NCBI GenBank assembly: GCA_013297755.1
Contig: JAAFIH010000005.1
Location: 62,001-126,000, forward strand
DNA: 64,000 nucleotides
Reading direction: 5' to 3'
Source of the DNA: Cytophagales bacterium
GTDB lineage: Bacteria; Bacteroidota; Bacteroidia; Cytophagales; UBA9547
The translations under genes and the position numbers were made by a program. Positions 3,456 through 62,098 of the stretch are shown here, in pieces. Numbering within the stretch: the first letter of the stretch is position 1; each line of letters starts with the position of its first letter. The notes beneath the pieces are model-generated. The model made no database searches. It saw only the letters and a program-made list of their open reading frames with translations, and was not told where the DNA came from.

Positions 3456-3494
3456 CATAACCCACGTAGCAATCAGGCTTTTTTAAATATTATC

Positions 3495-6400
3495 TTATTT
3501 GCTTATCACTATTTTTTTCATACTTTCTACATCATTTATATTTTTTATTTTTAATAAGTATGTCCCATTGGCAAGATGGCTTACATCAATATAGCTTTGA
3601 TGATATTCTCTGATTTCTCTTCCTTGCATATCATATATTATTACTGATTTAAGGCTTTCTTCAGTTATTATTTTTATGACATGACTCGCTGGATTTGGCA
3701 CAATATTTATACTGGATTCTATACTTTTTAATACTCCTTTTTCTTGTGTGGTAGGGCAATCTTTGCCTCCAATTTGTATGGTTTGTGTTGTTTTACAACC
3801 AAAATTGCTTGTGCCTACTACTGTAAAAACATCAATACCTGATACCGAAAGTTGGGCTATACTGTTGATATTGTTTGTAGGAAGCCATTGATAAAAAGCA
3901 GCTCCACTGGCACTAGCCACGACCAATGTGCCATTACAAATCGTTTTAGGATAATCAATCGTAATATTTGGAGTAGTATTGACTGTAATGGTAAATAGCA
4001 TTGAGTTGTTGCAACCAAACGAATTGATGCCTACTACTGTATAGTTTGTGGTAGACATAGGTGCCAGTACTTGATTTGTTCCCACCATACTATTAGGAAA
4101 CCAAGTATAACCATTGGCACCACTGCCCGTAATAGTGGTGTTTTGGTTAGCACAAATACTCATGATGCCATTGATGGATACCATAGGCAAAGTATTGACA
4201 GTAATAGTTACAAAAGCTGTATTTTGGCAAGTAGGGTTATTGTACCCAATCACTGTATAGGTTGTGGTGCTACTAGGGTTGGCTACCAAAGTAGCTCCTG
4301 CTATACTGCCTGGCATCCAAGTAGACAGTAATAGTTACAAAAGCTGTATTTTGGCAAGTAGGGTTATTGTACCCAATCACTGTATAGGTTGTGGTGCTAC
4401 TAGGGTTGGCTACCAAAGTAGCTCCTGCTATACTGCCTGGCATCCAAGTAAAGCTATTGGTGCCAGTGGCTACCAATGTAGTAGATGCTCCCTGGCATAC
4501 ATTTTTGGTGCCATTGATGGCCAGTGCAGGCGAGCCACTCACAGAGATAGTAAACAATCGACTTGCTTTGCATCCATTGAGGTCGGTGCCCACAACAGTA
4601 TAATTGGTATTGATGGATGGATTAAACGACTGTATTTGGCCAGCCAAGCCGCCAGGAAACCACTGATAACTATTGGTGCCTGTACTTGTGAGGGTAGTGG
4701 CTTCGCCATTGCAAATAGTGTTTGAGCCATTAATTGTAAAAATTGGATGTTGAAAAATAGTTTGATTTACAACACTATTTGAAGTACATCCATTGGCATC
4801 TGTACCTGTGATAGAAAATATGGTTGCAGCTGTAACTAATGGGTTTATGGTTTGCCCAACAAAACTGCCTGGCATCCAGGAGTAAGTTATTGCACCAAAT
4901 CCAGTAATACTTGCTAAAGCACCTATGCAAACTGCCCCTGTTGTGGTAGCTCCTATTTTTGGTGCACTCAAAACTGTAATTGTAAAATTACTAAAAGTAA
5001 AACATCCACTGCTTGAGGTTGATTTTACGGTATAAGTAGTAGTTGTGGTAGGGTTGAGTGTGGTGGCCAAATTAATAAATCCACCTGGTTGATATAGTAC
5101 AAATGGTGCCCCTGTAGTAGTAATAGTTGTGCTTTTGCCTTCACATATTTTCATGTTTCCACTTATAGTTACTATTGGCAGTGGATTAATAATTTGGTCT
5201 ACTAAAGTAGTTTTTTTGCATCCATTTATATCTGTACCTGTTACTGTATATGATTTTGAATCAGTAAGTATTTGATTAATATTTTGGCCAGTCAGATTGC
5301 CAGGCATCCAAGTATATGAACTAGCGCCAGTGGCCGATAGATAGGCCGTGAGTCCACTACATACTGCACCAGATGTAGTTGCTACTACATTGGGCAAACC
5401 AAATACTGTCAATGTAAATATATGATGATTGATGCAGTTTTTGCTATTAACTCCTATCAAAGTATAATTTGTGGTTGATATTGGATTTAAGATGACACTA
5501 TTATTGGTACTATTATCTGGTAGCCAAGTGTAGCTATTGGCACCAGTGCCTGAAATGGTGGTAGATTCGTTTATGCAAATAGACTTTTTGCCTGTGGTTG
5601 ATACTAAAGGCAAGGCATTGACTGTAATGGTAAATAGCATTGAGTTGTTGCAACCAAACGAATTGGTGCCTACTACTGTGTAGTTTGTGGTAGATATAGG
5701 TGCTAGTACTTGATTTGTTCCCACCATACTATTAGGAAACCAAGTATAACCATTGGCACCACTGCCCGTAATGGTGGTATTTTGGTTGGCACAAATACTC
5801 ATGATGCCATTGATGGATACCATAGGCAAAGCATCGACAGTAATAGTTACAAAAGCTGTATTTTGGCAAGTAGGGTTATTGTACCCAATCACTGTATAGG
5901 TTGTGGTGCTACTAGGGTTGGCTACCAAAGTAGCTCCTGCTATACTGCCTGGCATCCAAGTAAAGCTATTGGTGCCAGTGGCTACTAATGTGGTAGATGC
6001 TCCCTGGCATACATTTTTGGTGCCATTGATGGCCAGTGCAGGCGAGCCACTTACAGAGATAGTAAACAATCGACTTGCTTTGCATCCATTGAGGTCGGTG
6101 CCTACAACAGTATAATTGGTATTGGTGGATGGGTTAAACGACTGTATTTGGCCAGCCAAGCCGCCAGGAAACCACTGATAACTATTGGTACCTGTACTTG
6201 TGAGGGTAGTGGCATTGCCAGTACAGATGCTTGTAGCCCCTGATATATTAAAAATTGGTGTTGATAGGACTGTAAAATTGAAAATATTAGTCTTAGAACA
6301 TCCCTGTAAACTTGTGCCTCTTACCGTATAATTGGTATTTGTGAGAGGCGAAACAGATATACTATTTCCAGAAACATTGCCTGGATACCAAGCATAAGAA

Positions 6401-8688
6401 TTGGCTCCCAAAGCAGTAATGTTTGCTATATTTCCAGCACATATATTTTGAGGTGTTTTTACTGTAATTATGGGCAATGAATTGACAGTTACATTGATAG
6501 GTTTTGTATCGCTAAGCCCAGATGTGTGGTTTTTTTTAATATAATAAGTTCCCGAAATCGACACGGCATTTGCCCCAATAAGAGTGGTAGTTGCTGCCGC
6601 ATTTGTCCAATAGGTTACTGTGCCAGCTACAGAGTTTACGTCTGTAAACAAAGACGTTATATTTATTGTATTGCCCTCACAGATAGGGCTAGGTTGGCTG
6701 ATGGACAAATTGGGCTGACAATTAATTCCAAAAACAGATACTGCCTTTGTATCACTGCTCCCATTTATGGCTGAGGTTTTTTTGATATAATAAATGCCTG
6801 GCACAGATACAGATGTAGGATTGGGTAGTACTACTGTGGCAGTGGCATTAGACCAATAGCTAATACTGCCAGCTACACCATTGGCATCTACAAAAGTAGA
6901 AGTAATATTGGCAGTAGAACCCAAGCAACTTGCAGCAGGATTTGTAACCACCAAGTTTGGATTACATATATTAAATCCTAGAACTGTTACAGGTTTTATA
7001 TCAGAAATACCAGCCACTATGGCTTGTTTTTTGATATAATAGACCCCAGCTACACTGACCATGTTGGGCGAGGTTACGCTGATAGTAGCTAGTGCATTGG
7101 CCCAATAGGTTACAATACCTGTGATGCTTTTGGTGTCTACAAATGTTTTGGTAAGGTCTATAAAAGCACCTGCACAAGTACTTGGTGGGTTTTTTGTTAT
7201 TAAATTTGGAGCTGTTATTGTAAAATTTGGATTTGTTCTGTTAAAAAATGGTCTATAAATACGAATTTCTTTGATAGGTGTGTTCTTATTGCCTTTGGCA
7301 TCTAATACCAAAGTATGATTATCGTTGGTAAGCCCCTGAGCTAAGACAGATACACTATCTATGGCACCACCAGAGATGGTAGTTGGACAAAAAGTATCTG
7401 TATAAAAAGCCTTAGCTTGCCATTTAATGGTGTATCCTGGGGCTAGTGGCAAGGGGGCATAAGGTCCATTATTAAAATAAAATTTGTCGTTCAGAAACCT
7501 TACTTGCCCAGAAGTAGAATTAAAATCAGCCCCAGAGGTGTTATAATTATTGTCGATATTTGAACTACCAGAGCCATCGTTGCCAGTGGCAGAACCCGAA
7601 ACATTGTAAGTAAAATTAACATTGGCATTGTAGGTTACAAAACTCAAAGTCCAGTTTTGGGCTTTTAGCAAACTGGTTGGGTTTTCAAACTTGGCAATAG
7701 TGCCCGTTTGCCAAGGAAAATCTACTGCTGGATAATGTCTAAAAATAGTATCATAGCCATCGTTGGGGCGAGTAAACATCACATTACCAGCAATGGTTGA
7801 TGGTCTTTTATTGTCTATAAATACGGCTGCACTATCCATGTTTGGCACTGGGCTGGCATGTACTAGGTCTACTTTGCTGCCATTGAATGGGAGTGTTATT
7901 TTGCCATTTACTGCAAATATATCTTGCCCTACTACATACGTTTTTACTAATCCAAAGGTGTCGCTGGCCCAGTTGCTTTTATAATTAAGGTATGGTCGAT
8001 ACAAGCGAGCCATCAAAAAATTGCCCCACTGGTTCAGATGTGTGCCATCTGTAGTGAGGTCGTTGGCATTTGCTACGTTGTTATCATTCAGGTATTGAAG
8101 CCAACGGGTACGCACATCTATCAGCTCTATGCCATATTTTGTGGCCAGTTCTTCAAAATATCTAGCTCCACCACTATTTTCATTTCTAAATTCTGTACCT
8201 GTTACATGGTGGTTTTGCATACCAATTTCGGCCGTTGTGTTTGTGCGAATATAGTTCAATATATTTTCATATTGATTTCCCTGATCGCCACCCCACTGTC
8301 CCCAACCATATACATCAAAAAGAATCAAATCAGGATAAAATGTTTTGATATCATAAGCCACATAGTCTTCTAAACAACCTGCCCAACAACCACCAATAGA
8401 CCGATTTATCATAATTAGATGGGCATAAGGATATTTTTTTTTGATATATAACCTTACAGAATCGCTCCATTCTTGTTTTGCTATGGACTGGCCATAGACC
8501 ATTATTTTAACAGTGTTTCTTTTAGTTGGGGTACTTGTGGCGAGCAACCTCATCGTTCGTTGAATTTTTCGTCCAAACTGCGAAGTATCCACATTTACAG
8601 GCAATGGATAAGGCAGCTGTGCCTGACACAAAATAGAAAATACTAAGCAGTAGAATATAACTTGAACCCTTTTTATCATATTAAACAA
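3495..8688 (-). CDS. Giant SGNH-hydrolase, Ig/PKD-like repeat protein with T9SS type A sorting domain (split by 127-bp artefact)
   Basis: As given, the frame from 8688 stops at 4273, and a second frame (about 4316 to 3495) carries the C-terminus. Deleting one copy of the exact 127-bp duplication at 4197-4450 joins them into 1689 codons (1688 residues). Domains: signal peptide (1-24, ending LCQAQ); an SGNH/GDSL hydrolase-like domain (about 58-235) with Ser68 in YGQS, Gly99-Gly100, and Asp214/His217 in DGTHLNQWG; a jelly-roll-like region; three short 'YWxNA' repeats; then about twelve Ig/PKD-like repeats of the form 'ICxGxxxTLTxTGxNxYxWxPG'; and a C-terminal type A sorting domain (IVPNPASHVIKI...). 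It is probably a secreted surface esterase or adhesin. The block III Asn of classical SGNH enzymes is not obvious. Confidence 0.82.
4197..4450. repeat. Exact 127-bp tandem duplication (probable assembly join artefact)
   Basis: Bases 4197-4323 are identical to 4324-4450, with identity beginning and ending exactly at the unit borders. The unit also occurs once at 5836-5962 in the same gene. It starts immediately after base 4196 (T), which differs from the corresponding base 5835 (C) of the other copy. The unit is not a multiple of three and shifts the frame of the SGNH gene. Confidence 0.95.
5620..6213 (-). repeat. 594-bp in-frame internal duplication within the SGNH repeat gene
   Basis: Bases 5620-6213 correspond nearly base for base to 3981-4701 once one 127-bp artefact unit is removed (721 minus 127 equals 594, or 198 codons). 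Only scattered substitutions separate them. This is a recent duplication of about two and a half Ig-like repeats within the gene. It is also the repeat that would have confused a short-read assembler. Confidence 0.85.
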
Positions 8689-45123: not shown

Positions 45124-45234
45124 GGGCTTGGTGCAGGTGGGGAAATCTTAGTACAAAAGCCCAAATAAAGTAGTTTAGCCCCATTTATATTCAAAAGTTC
45201 AATTTAGCACTTTCGCCCCACTATTGCAAAACCC
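45124..45234. repeat. About 111-bp imperfect palindrome (attC-like), copy 2
   Basis: The left arm GGGCTTGGTGCAGGTGGGG (45124-45142) pairs imperfectly with the right arm CCCCACTATTGCAAAACCC (45216-45234). The inner TTCAATTTAGCACTTT is shared with the copy at 23831-23942. It lies in the 481-base gap between the desaturase gene and the Rpn locus, whose other content is the terminator at 45376. Confidence 0.6.
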
Positions 45235-45375
45235 TTGTTGAACTGACACTCTACCTGGTGAACAATCGACCAACAATTTTACTATTTTTGCCTTACATTT
45301 AAAAACAAATATATGATTAATTTTCAAAAAAACAATGTAGATAAAATGGGTCTCAACCAACATCAGCTAACAAAA

Positions 45376-45414
45376 AGAAGCCCCCCATCTAAGTTGTAGG
45401 TCGGGGCTTTTTTT
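45376..45414 (-). terminator. Rho-independent terminator of the first Rpn gene (bidirectional)
   Basis: Stem AAGCCCC (45378-45384) with GGGGCTT (45403-45409), and T/A runs on both sides. It is 30 bases past the stop of the minus-strand Rpn gene. Near-identical copies follow at 46724 and 47944. Confidence 0.8.
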
Positions 45415-45443
45415 CGCTAGCTTGCTAGATGTTATACACTGTT

Positions 45444-46392
45444 TTATTTTTCAGCTCTTAATTTTTCAACTTGCTCAATTGTAAGTTCAGTTACAGATGC
45501 AATTTCGGAATTTTGCATTCCTAATTTTATTAATCTTTTAGCAATATCTTCTGCTTTTTTTCTAACAGCAAAAGTCATTCTTCCCCTATCATCTTGCTCT
45601 CTCATAAGTACATAATCATAAGCTTCTAATTCGGCTTTTGTCCAATTATGTTTGTCAGCATCTTCATAAGCAAATTTTAGTCCTTTGTCTTTCAAGTTTT
45701 CTGGAATTACATGAAGATTTTCTGAGTTTTTAATAAAGTAAACCCATTGGTCAATAACGCTTTCCAATTCATTTTCTTTTTTGTTGAACTTCGGAAGTTC
45801 TATAAAATTGAATTCAATATCTTTAATATAATTTTCATTGAAGATTTTCTGAGTTTTTAATAAAGTAAACCCATTGGTCAATAACGCTTTCCAATTCATT
45901 TTCTTTTTTGTTGAACTTCGGAAGTTCTATAAAATTGAATTCAATATCTTTAATATAATTTTCATTGGTTTCAATGTCTATTATTTTGTGTCTATTTATA
46001 TAGCTTGGATTTTTAGTTACTTCAAAGTCTAAAATACCTATAAAGTATGTTGGATTCAAGTTTTCGTATTGGTCGCCTCTTTCGATTTGAGCTGTATAAC
46101 TTTTCGAAGCGTAATATAAAACACGTTTGTCAAAGCCATCAACTTCTGCAACTTGCATTTCTACAATGTAAGTTTTGTCGTTTTGGTCTTTTGCTTTTAC
46201 GTCTACAATTGTCACTTTACCACCTTTTAAGTCGGGAAGTTGGTAAGGTGTTAAAATGTCAACGTTTACTATTTTGTGGTTTTCTTGAAGCAATAAAACT
46301 GCGTTTAGAAAAGAAATTAATACTTCTTTTCTATTTTCGTTTCCAAATATTTTTCGGAAAGCAACGTCATTTTTTATGTCTACAAATTTCAT
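45444..46392 (-). CDS. Rpn family PD-(D/E)XK recombination-promoting nuclease, copy 1 (split by 127-bp artefact)
   Basis: As given, two overlapping frames (46392 to 45835, and 45899 to 45444) each hold part of the protein. Removing one unit of the 127-bp duplication gives 274 codons, 273 residues, exactly the length of copy 2. The N-terminal part has MKFVDIKNDVAFRKIFG and the nuclease strand VTIVDVKAKDQNDKTYIVEMQ (candidate Asp and Glu-x-Gln). Residues to about 225 are practically identical to copy 2, but the last 35 or so (AVRKKAEDIAKRLIKLGM..) differ and end in the shared QVEKLRAEK. Rpn proteins are DNA endonucleases once called YhgA-like transposases and are linked to phage defence. Confidence 0.85.
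45713..45967. repeat. Exact 127-bp-period tandem duplication inside Rpn copy 1 (probable assembly join artefact)
   Basis: Bases 45714-45840 equal 45841-45967. The unit begins right after base 45713 (G), the last position that differs from copy 2 (C at 47062). Period is 127, as in the artefact at 4197-4450. Confidence 0.95.
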
Positions 46393-46685
46393 AATACAAA
46401 TTTACAAAATTCTTTCTAATATAATATTTTTCTGTTATTTTGGTATTTCGGATAATAACACACAACGTATTTGGGGCTTGGCGAAGGCAGGGATTTTTAC
46501 CACAAATGTTGATGCCATGAACCAAACTTTGATTAACCAGAAATGTATCTGCGGAGCCCTGAACCTCCTCTTTTGTTATGCACGTATTTAACTGACCCCC
46601 TATCTTATGAATAATCAACAAACAATTTTACTGTTTTTGCCTTACATTTAAAAACAAATATATGATTTATTTTCAAAAAAACAAT
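45841..46685. repeat. 845-bp direct repeat (with 47063-47907)
   Basis: Bases 45841-46685 appear identical to 47063-47907, a spacing of 1222. It covers most of the Rpn reading frame and the upstream 290 bases, and ends at a T/G difference (46686 versus 47908). The gap 46393-46792 therefore carries only this repeat, a half copy of the attC-like element (GGGGCTTGGCGAAGGCAGGG at 46473) and a terminator. Confidence 0.85.
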
Positions 46686-46723
46686 TTAGGTAAAATTGAT
46701 CTCTCAACCAACATCAGCTAACA

Positions 46724-46763
46724 AAAAAAGCCCCCATTTAAGTTGTAGGTCGGGGCTTTTTTT
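46724..46763 (-). terminator. Rho-independent terminator of the second Rpn gene
   Basis: Stem AAGCCCC.. (from 46728) with GGGGCTTTTTTT (46752-46763). Same sequence as the terminator at 45376 with small differences; A and T runs flank both sides. Confidence 0.8.
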
Positions 46764-46792
46764 CGCTAGCTGGCTAGATGTTATACACTGTT

Positions 46793-47614
46793 TTATTTTT
46801 CAGCTCTTAATTTTTCAACTTGTTTTACTGTCAAAAGAGTGTGTTCAGAAATTTGTATATCTGTTAAATTGGTTTTAAATAAACTTCTTGCAACGTTTTC
46901 CAATGTTTTTCTATTTGACAAAGTAATTCTTCCCCTATCATCTTGCTCTCTCATAAGTACATAATCATAAGCTTCTAATTCGGCTTTTGTCCAATTATGT
47001 TTGTCAGCATCTTCATAAGCAAATTTTAACCCTTCATCTTTCAAGTTTTCTGGAATTACATCAAGATTTTCTGAGTTTTTAATAAAGTAAACCCATTGGT
47101 CAATAACGCTTTCCAATTCATTTTCTTTTTTGTTGAACTTCGGAAGTTCTATAAAATTGAATTCAATATCTTTAATATAATTTTCATTGGTTTCAATGTC
47201 TATTATTTTGTGTCTATTTATATAGCTTGGATTTTTAGTTACTTCAAAGTCTAAAATACCTATAAAGTATGTTGGATTCAAGTTTTCGTATTGGTCGCCT
47301 CTTTCGATTTGAGCTGTATAACTTTTCGAAGCGTAATATAAAACACGTTTGTCAAAGCCATCAACTTCTGCAACTTGCATTTCTACAATGTAAGTTTTGT
47401 CGTTTTGGTCTTTTGCTTTTACGTCTACAATTGTCACTTTACCACCTTTTAAGTCGGGAAGTTGGTAAGGTGTTAAAATGTCAACGTTTACTATTTTGTG
47501 GTTTTCTTGAAGCAATAAAACTGCGTTTAGAAAAGAAATTAATACTTCTTTTCTATTTTCGTTTCCAAATATTTTTCGGAAAGCAACGTCATTTTTTATG
47601 TCTACAAATTTCAT
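46793..47614 (-). CDS. Rpn family PD-(D/E)XK recombination-promoting nuclease, copy 2 (intact)
   Basis: 273 residues. Same N-terminal nuclease domain as copy 1 (VDIKNDVAFRKIFGNE; DVKAKDQNDKTYIVEMQVAE) and a conserved middle (NYIKDIEFNFIELPKFNKKENE). The C-terminal 45 residues diverge between the shared MREQDDRGR and QVEKLRAEK: here LSNRKTLENVARSLFKTNLTDIQISEHTLLTVK. In the known rpn genes of enterobacteria the C-terminal part can be translated alone from an internal start as an inhibitor. A Met stands just before the variable part (DYVLMREQDDRGR), which would allow this here, but I see no clear ribosome site. Confidence 0.88.
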   Translation of the reverse strand: MKFVDIKNDVAFRKIFGNENRKEVLISFLNAVLLLQENHKIVNVDILTPYQLPDLKGGKVTIVDVKAKDQNDKTYIVEMQVAEVDGFDKRVLYYASKSYTAQIERGDQYENLNPTYFIGILDFEVTKNPSYINRHKIIDIETNENYIKDIEFNFIELPKFNKKENELESVIDQWVYFIKNSENLDVIPENLKDEGLKFAYEDADKHNWTKAELEAYDYVLMREQDDRGRITLSNRKTLENVARSLFKTNLTDIQISEHTLLTVKQVEKLRAEK

Positions 47615-47942
47615 AATACAAATTTACAAAATTCTTTCTAATATAATATTTTTCTGTTATTTTGGTATTTCGGATAATAACACACAACGTATTTGGGGCT
47701 TGGCGAAGGCAGGGATTTTTACCACAAATGTTGATGCCATGAACCAAACTTTGATTAACCAGAAATGTATCTGCGGAGCCCTGAACCTCCTCTTTTGTTA
47801 TGCACGTATTTAACTGACCCCCTATCTTATGAATAATCAACAAACAATTTTACTGTTTTTGCCTTACATTTAAAAACAAATATATGATTTATTTTCAAAA
47901 AAACAATGTAGGTAAAATGGGTCTCAACCAACATCAGCTAAC

Positions 47943-47983
47943 AAAAAAAGCCCCCATCTAAGTTGTAAGTGGGGCTTTTTTTT
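47943..47983 (-). terminator. Rho-independent terminator of the SAP/DUF6434 gene
   Basis: Stem AAGCCCC with GGGGCTTTTTTTT, a third copy of the terminator at 45376/46724, with a second GGGCTTTTTTT directly after it. It is 44 bases past the stop at 48027. The surrounding 412-base gap (47615-48026) is the right-hand copy of the 845-bp repeat. Confidence 0.75.
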
Positions 47984-48026
47984 AGGGCTTTTTTTCGCTA
48001 GCTGGCTAGATGTTGTATGTTTGTTT

Positions 48027-48614
48027 TTATGTTAGCGTTAAATCTGTCCTTTCATATTCATTTGTTCCACGCTTTACTCTTTTTAATTTCCAAAATTTCA
48101 TAGCATCTTTACTTGTTAAATTTGGATTGTCAGCCAAAAATGCCCGCATATATTTGTTGTATTCAAATTGTGGTGCAATTTCAGACTGATAGTTTTTATC
48201 TTTTTTCAAATCGTCTAAGCATTTCCACTCTTTTACAGCGTCTGCCATAGTTTTACCAACACTTTCTTTCAGCCAATTCATAAATTTTACGTTGAAAGAA
48301 AAAGTCGTCCCAATTTCGCTTATAAAAAAGGCTCTCACATTTTCGGTATTTTTATAGTTGTCTGTGATAATAGTGGTATTATCTAATTTTTCCGTATTCC
48401 AATCAAAATTAGATTTTGGTTTTTGGGTTTGTTTTTGTTGTATAATTTTTTCGCCTGTTAAAAGAAAGTGCTGTATTCGTTTTGTTAATTCAATTTTTCC
48501 ACCAAAAGTTTTTATATCGTTTTTTCTACAAAATTCTATAAGTTCTTCTTTCAACCAATAAAATTCGTTGAAGTCTGTTAGTGAAATATTGTTGTTTAAT
48601 GGTGGTCTTTCCAT
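48027..48614 (-). CDS. SAP-like / DUF6434 domain protein
   Basis: 195 residues, charged and soluble. The N-terminal 55 residues (LKEELIEFCRKNDIKTFGGKIELTKRIQHFL) form a SAP/HeH helix-extension-helix DNA-binding motif. A short basic linker (IIQQKQTQKPKSNFDWN) leads to a DUF6434-like region. The C-terminal half (KFMNWLKESVGKTMADAVKEW) resembles the extra helical domain often fused there. It shares its downstream terminator with the Rpn genes, so it may belong to the same mobile cassette cluster. Function unknown. Confidence 0.65.
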   Translation of the reverse strand: MERPPLNNNISLTDFNEFYWLKEELIEFCRKNDIKTFGGKIELTKRIQHFLLTGEKIIQQKQTQKPKSNFDWNTEKLDNTTIITDNYKNTENVRAFFISEIGTTFSFNVKFMNWLKESVGKTMADAVKEWKCLDDLKKDKNYQSEIAPQFEYNKYMRAFLADNPNLTSKDAMKFWKLKRVKRGTNEYERTDLTLT

Positions 48615-60696: not shown

Positions 60697-61021
60697 ACAT
60701 TAAACATTAAACATTAAACATTAAACATTAAACATTAAACATTAAACATTAAACATTAAACATTAAACTTTAAACATTAAACATTAAACTTTAAACATTA
60801 AACATTAAACATTAAACATTAAACTTTAAACTTTAAACTTTAAACTTTAAACATTAAACATTAAACATTAAACTTTAAACTTTAAACATTAAACATTAAA
60901 CATTAAACTTTAAACATTAAACATTAAACATTAAACATTAAACATTAAACATTAAACATTAAACATTAAACATTAAACATTAAACATTAAACATTAAACA
61001 TTAAACATTAAACATTAAACA
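60697..61021. repeat. Heptamer tandem array (ATTAAAC/TTTAAAC), about 46 copies
   Basis: Uninterrupted 7-base units over 325 bases, mostly ATTAAAC with about ten TTTAAAC variants that come in small clusters. The array ends one base from the stop codon (TGA, minus strand) of the guanylyltransferase gene at 61022. No coding capacity: each unit carries TAA. Confidence 0.95.
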
Positions 61022-62098
61022 TCAAATAAATTTATTCCCAAATTTAGATTTAGCATCAGTCAAAAATTGTTTTACTTTTTGCTCGTCCTCTTTTTTGCAA
61101 ACCATCAACACACTGTCGTATTCGGCCACTATAAAACCATCCAATCCATTGATTACCACCAGTTTATCAGCAGGGGTTTTTACTATACAATTATGCGAAT
61201 CATACACCATCACATTGCCTTCTATCACATTTTTTTGAGAGTCTTTTTCGGCCAATTCGTAAATAGATTTCCAAGTACCCACATCAGACCAACCAAAATG
61301 GCCCAAAATAGTATGCACATTTGAGGCTTTTTCCATGATTCCATAGTCAAATGAAATACTTTGGCACTTAGGATAAAGCGTATCTATGTGCGATTGTTCG
61401 TTTTCGGTATAATAAACTGTGCTTAGGTTGCTAAAACTAGCACTCATTTGAGGTAAAAACGAACCAAAAGCCTGATCAATGGTAGAAAAATTGAAAATGA
61501 AAAGACCTGCATTCCACACAAAATCGCCACTTGCCAAAAACTGAAGTGCAGTTTCGTGGTTGGGTTTTTCGGCAAACGATTTTACTTTCTTTATATCTTT
61601 ATCAGATTTTTCGTCATATTGGATATACCCATAACCAGTATCAGGCCTTGTTGGTACAATACCTACTGTAACTATATCGTTATTAGATTTGGCATGATTT
61701 GCTGCTATTCTTACTGTTTTTTCAAACTCTTTTTCTTTCATCACATACTGATCTGATGGCGTTACGATAATAGTAGCTAGCGGATTTTTGGTAGCTATTT
61801 TGTAAGATGCGTAAGCAATACATGGAGCAGTATTGCGTCCTTCGGGCTCTAAAAGTATCTGATTATCAACCAAATAGGGCAATATTTTTTTTACTTCATT
61901 TTTGTAAACAGTATTTGTTACTACAAATATATTTTCTTTAGGACAGATACTCAAAAACCTATTTGCGGTTTCTTCTAGCATCGTTAGGCCTTTGCCCAAA
62001 ACATCGTGAAATTGCTTGGGTTTGTGGGCTCTACTAAAAGGCCAAAAACGGCTTCCAATTCCGCCAGCCATAATGACAACAAAATTATTATTATCCAT
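61022..62098 (-). CDS. Mannose-1-phosphate guanylyltransferase
   Basis: 358 residues. Signature MAGGIGSRFWPFSRAHKPKQFHDVLG (nucleotide binding, PKQF) near the N-terminus, followed by EPEGRNTAPCIAYA, VTPSDQYV, TGYGYIQY, FAEKPNHETA and WNAGLFIF. It makes GDP-mannose from mannose-1-phosphate and GTP, for cell-wall glycans and exopolysaccharide. It is a single-domain enzyme without the fused isomerase domain. It starts 8 bases after the VWA gene, so the two are cotranscribed. Its stop abuts the heptamer array. Confidence 0.95.
   Translation of the reverse strand: MDNNNFVVIMAGGIGSRFWPFSRAHKPKQFHDVLGKGLTMLEETANRFLSICPKENIFVVTNTVYKNEVKKILPYLVDNQILLEPEGRNTAPCIAYASYKIATKNPLATIIVTPSDQYVMKEKEFEKTVRIAANHAKSNNDIVTVGIVPTRPDTGYGYIQYDEKSDKDIKKVKSFAEKPNHETALQFLASGDFVWNAGLFIFNFSTIDQAFGSFLPQMSASFSNLSTVYYTENEQSHIDTLYPKCQSISFDYGIMEKASNVHTILGHFGWSDVGTWKSIYELAEKDSQKNVIEGNVMVYDSHNCIVKTPADKLVVINGLDGFIVAEYDSVLMVCKKEDEQKVKQFLTDAKSKFGNKFI

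Follow-up and report, generated by a model that had tools for sequence, protein, structure and literature searches.

Short-read assembly is known to leave artificial overlaps at contig ends. SPAdes, in which the largest k is 127, creates overlaps between contig ends (PMC5481147), and papers on phage genomes describe and remove artificial overlaps or terminal repeats of 127 bp on SPAdes contigs (PMC5923482; PMC11210271). Repeat variation of biological origin has been described from the genes of Rpn-family nucleases, which encode a separately translated and highly variable C-terminal inhibitor. The published variation in these genes consists of 12-bp (four-residue) repeats that keep the reading frame (PMC10327210). 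This inhibitor, RpnS, and an activity against phages are known from Rpn systems of other bacteria.

Here, we analysed 64,000 nucleotides from the genome assembly of a Cytophagales bacterium (contig JAAFIH010000005.1, positions 62,001 to 126,000; the whole of this stretch is called the window below). One of two neighbouring Rpn-family genes in the window contains an exact tandem duplication of 127 bp. We conclude, with a probability of about 0.97, that this duplication is an assembly artefact, namely an untrimmed overlap with k=127 left where two paths were joined, and not a biological feature. The real chromosome most likely has one unit and an intact Rpn gene of 273 amino acids at this position.

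The Rpn gene pair and its duplication

Both genes belong to the same nuclease family and are encoded on the minus strand. Copy 2 (46793–47614) is intact, encodes 273 amino acids, and scores above the curated cut-offs of PF12784 (184.1 bits against 27.4; E=4.3e-54) and TIGR01784 (128.1 bits against 52.1; E=5.3e-37). Copy 1 (45444–46392), whose assembled reading frame is shifted by the additional 127 bp, appears as two overlapping, out-of-frame ORFs of 185 and 151 amino acids (45835–46392 and 45444–45899), each of which matches Pfam PDDEXK_2 (PF12784). Copy 1 extends over 949 bp (46392-45444+1), and subtraction of 127 bp leaves 822 bp, or 274 codons, corresponding to 273 amino acids and a stop. 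This is the length of copy 2, and the proposal in the initial annotation that removal of one unit gives 273 residues, like the intact paralogue, is borne out.

The two copies are near-identical in their N-terminal parts and differ mainly in the C-terminal part. Together with the intergenic stretch, which is present a third time in partial form and without a gene (47789–47955), they make up a tandem Rpn array at 45218–48048. An array with differing C-terminal parts fits the known C-terminal diversification of Rpn genes. None of the PADLOC models matched copy 2. In biological terms, the locus consists of two ordinary Rpn-family nuclease genes in tandem, of which copy 1 is spuriously frameshifted.

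The duplication is an exact tandem pair in which 45714–45840 (unit 1) and 45841–45967 (unit 2) are identical at 127/127 positions, and the same 127-mer is found again at 47063–47189 in the region of copy 2. Taken by itself, the boundary slides by two bases, as the dinucleotide TG at 45712–45713 is repeated at 45839–45840. Comparison with copy 2 sets it at 45713/45714, with G at 45713 versus C at 47062. The initial annotation had placed the start directly after this G, the base distinguishing copy 1 from copy 2, and all of its coordinates and bases proved correct, as did the claim of an exact repeat. Twenty-five identical bases separate 45713 from the preceding difference between the two copies. 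The agreement with copy 2 runs on beyond unit 2 and amounts to 845 bp from the first base of this unit (45841–46685 = 47063–47907; repeat R below).

Recurrence of the 127-bp period in the assembly

The initial annotation had proposed looking through the assembly (4.24 Mb in 70 contigs) for exact 127-bp duplications beside repeats. Our scan for exact tandem duplications with a non-simple unit of 40–1000 bp covered 2.80 Mb, about two thirds of the genome, and found six of them, all placed base-exactly at repeat boundaries. In total, 19 exact tandem duplications were present in the 2.80 Mb, 6 with a period of 127 bp, 2 with a period of 45 bp, and 11 each with a length of its own. Above 45 bp, 127 is the only period that recurs, and both 45-bp cases are on one contig. 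A wide range of other duplication lengths had been named as an observation that would speak against an artefact; the 13 remaining cases do have 12 other periods, yet only 45 recurs among them, 127 stands out as a spike of six, and the reading stands. These other duplications range from 40 to 978 bp and may be real.

The six 127-bp cases are strikingly uniform. All are two-copy repeats of complex units with a match run of 127–129. In each case the contig contains the 127-mer once more, as a third, directly oriented copy at a distance of 0.7–1.7 kb. The edge of the duplication is in every case the base at which the third copy diverges, with the duplication beginning there in five cases and ending there in one. 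In the five, the base preceding unit 1 differs from the third copy and the agreement runs on past unit 2; the sixth is the mirror image. Base-exact placement at the outer boundary of two direct repeats is consequently common to all of the 127-bp duplications (6/6). The chance of such placement is about 1e-11 if 127-bp duplications fall at random inside the same repeats.

Within the window, only two non-simple exact tandem duplications with a period of 60–3000 bp exist, at 4197–4450 and at 45714–45967. The former (4197–4323 = 4324–4450) lies inside a large repetitive open frame, with the third copy at 5836–5962 and the divergence at 4196 (T) and 5835 (C). The other four exact 127-bp tandem duplications lie outside the window, likewise at repeat edges, at C1:87999–88252, C1:193185–193438, C13:15613–15866, and C34:133572–133825. 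Since 127 is not divisible by 3, each such site within a gene breaks that gene. The large frame at 3480–7500 (minus strand) has diverged internal repeats and is shifted by the 4197 duplication near its C-terminal end, and open frames shift or end in or near several of the duplications on C1, C13, and C34.

A real and recent tandem duplication, by slippage or unequal exchange, could have inactivated Rpn copy 1. Identical units are expected from a recent event, and the genome has other tandem duplications that look real. Such events would, however, vary in length and position, whereas here six separate loci have duplications of equal length, each bounded at a base of paralogue divergence, and a 127-bp unit also flanks an N gap (see below). 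We consider a real duplication at this locus very unlikely. The argument had originally been made from two unrelated genes, in which 127-bp duplications at paralogue-distinguishing bases were held to be improbable biologically, and it has gained weight with six such loci and the N-gap case. Even less probable is a recombination system that makes tandem duplications of a fixed 127 bp at the boundaries of local direct repeats and thereby switches several genes, including the Rpn nuclease, by frameshift; we give this possibility almost no credence.

The caution that had been advised for all gene models next to long repeats is too broad as a general rule: such duplications are absent from at least 12 other pairs of direct repeats with a length of 127 bp or more.

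The N gap, contig ends, and a model for the join

A run of N normally marks a scaffold join. On contig C56, one and the same 127-mer flanks a run of ten N (84792–84801), being present at C56:84665–84791 and again at C56:84802–84928. The identical 127-mer on both sides means that a joining step abutted pieces overlapping by 127 bases and left the overlap untrimmed. This case is decisive; the tandem cases are the same event without the N, and the length recurs in all at seven sites. An exact third copy was not found for the 127-mer at the C56 gap, its nearest copies being 94% and 92% identical, and this particular join is therefore not at an exact repeat edge. The stretch C56:84665–84928 is within a long repetitive open frame.

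The ends of many contigs match the ends of other contigs over 125–132 bp, and those of C4 and C56 over exactly 127. Contig-end overlaps are as expected from a de Bruijn graph with k=127, with the counterpoint that their lengths vary from 125 to 132 and are not uniformly 127. A different type of repeat is also seen close to contig ends. The 7-mer ACATTAA is repeated about 47 times at 60697–61026 of the window, and similar heptamer arrays occur at C1:212969, C12:223, and C23:630, all at most 1 kb from contig ends.

With k=127, neighbouring edges of a de Bruijn graph have exactly one 127-base vertex in common. In our model, the assembler was probably of the SPAdes type with this k, and a unique edge, A, would end with the same 127-mer with which the repeat edge, R, starts, namely the one following the last base that distinguishes the Rpn copies. 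Unit 1 (45714–45840) would then be the surplus 127-mer, that is, the end of A with its k-overlap, and unit 2 (45841–45967) the true start of R, from which the 845-bp identity with the paralogous copy extends. R would be traversed twice, first at 45841–46685 and again at 47063–47907, on either side of a loop, B, of 377 bp (46686–47062) that, judged from the geometry and the ORF, contains the portion of Rpn copy 2 that codes for its C-terminal part. The path A-R-B-R-C thus described would constitute a local loop of about 2.1 kb. Read pairs were probably too short to span it, such that path A and path R-B-R-C may have been joined at a later scaffolding or gap step and concatenated without trimming of the shared 127-mer, leaving it present twice.

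The spans of the repeats provide an indication of the role of the insert size. Direct repeat pairs with a duplication span 939–2067 bp versus mostly less than 1000 bp for those without, a trend with p=0.0045 without the complex C8 repeat cluster and p=0.08 (not significant) with it. This suggests that it took a later step to join loops exceeding the reach of the read pairs. That step may have been separate from the assembler. One possible, if rather unlikely, variant of our explanation is that the overlap was introduced after assembly by a gap filler, a polisher, or a contig merger and not by the assembler's own scaffolder. The sequences are compatible with either origin, the C56 gap shows that some joining step kept the overlap, and nothing specific speaks against a post-assembly step.

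The initial annotation had further held the scaffold order to be uncertain at both joins. This was not demonstrated, the graph being a simple local loop, A-R-B-R-C. With such a loop, the flank order is less in doubt than the number of passes. How many Rpn repeat units there are, and hence the Rpn copy number, depends on the passes through the R-B loop, and the count in the assembly sequence is tentative.

Relatives and comparison with described systems

Homologous genes were compared in five related genomes, two from the same genus, one from the family, and two from the order. All 11 homologous genes have a single unit, and the overlap in the subject and the gap in the query add up to 127 every time, meaning that the relatives have one unit where the assembly has two. 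In the three relatives checked for synteny, the flanking desaturase and nuoD genes are on different contigs in 3/3, so that the comparison carries no information on the scaffold order. A Cytophagales MAG from another project contains a locus (L161, on contig JAAFKE010000021.1) with a duplication of equal length, an exact 127-bp tandem repeat at positions 2698–2951 of the locus. It is located 41 bp past the end of an Rpn match in a truncated gene, with the match ending at residue 214. A third copy of this 127-mer was sought in that genome and was not found, such that the agreement is in length alone.

The single unit in the homologues also bears on the idea that the 127-bp repeat is programmed or phase-variable, serving as an on/off switch of Rpn or separating a long nuclease from a C-terminal inhibitor, as with RpnL and RpnS. 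The separately translated, variable inhibitor (PMC10327210) and the mainly C-terminal differences between the present copies lend it some appeal. The published units are, however, 12 bp long and in frame, not 127 bp (PMC10327210), and the 127-bp event is found also in unrelated genes and at one 10-N gap. Taken together with the homologues, this leaves a programmed repeat exceedingly improbable, and an untrimmed overlap remains our explanation of the duplication.

Once the artefact is recognized, the frameshift and the tandem repeat can both be struck from the record as false, and the gene models at no fewer than four other loci in the assembly require the same correction. Its signature also provides a test for this error that does not depend on reads: an exact tandem duplication with the length of the assembler's k and an edge at the divergence base of a nearby repeat copy. 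A small literature search found no direct report of false duplications of size k in an internal, tandem form.

Two described systems are closest to the locus. First, the curated models of the Rpn family nuclease or PD-(D/E)XK_2 putative transposase (PF12784, TIGR01784) include both genes. All that sets the two genes apart from the described family is their tandem arrangement and the contrast between their near-identical N-terminal and divergent C-terminal parts. Copy 1 is not truly frameshifted. Second, the duplication resembles the artificial contig-end overlap of SPAdes (PMC5923482; PMC11210271) in being exactly 127 bp, identical, of the length of the largest k, and a k-mer common to adjacent edges. 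The published overlaps concern the two ends of phage contigs, whereas those described here are inside contigs, at joins to repeat edges, where they mimic a tandem duplication within a gene.
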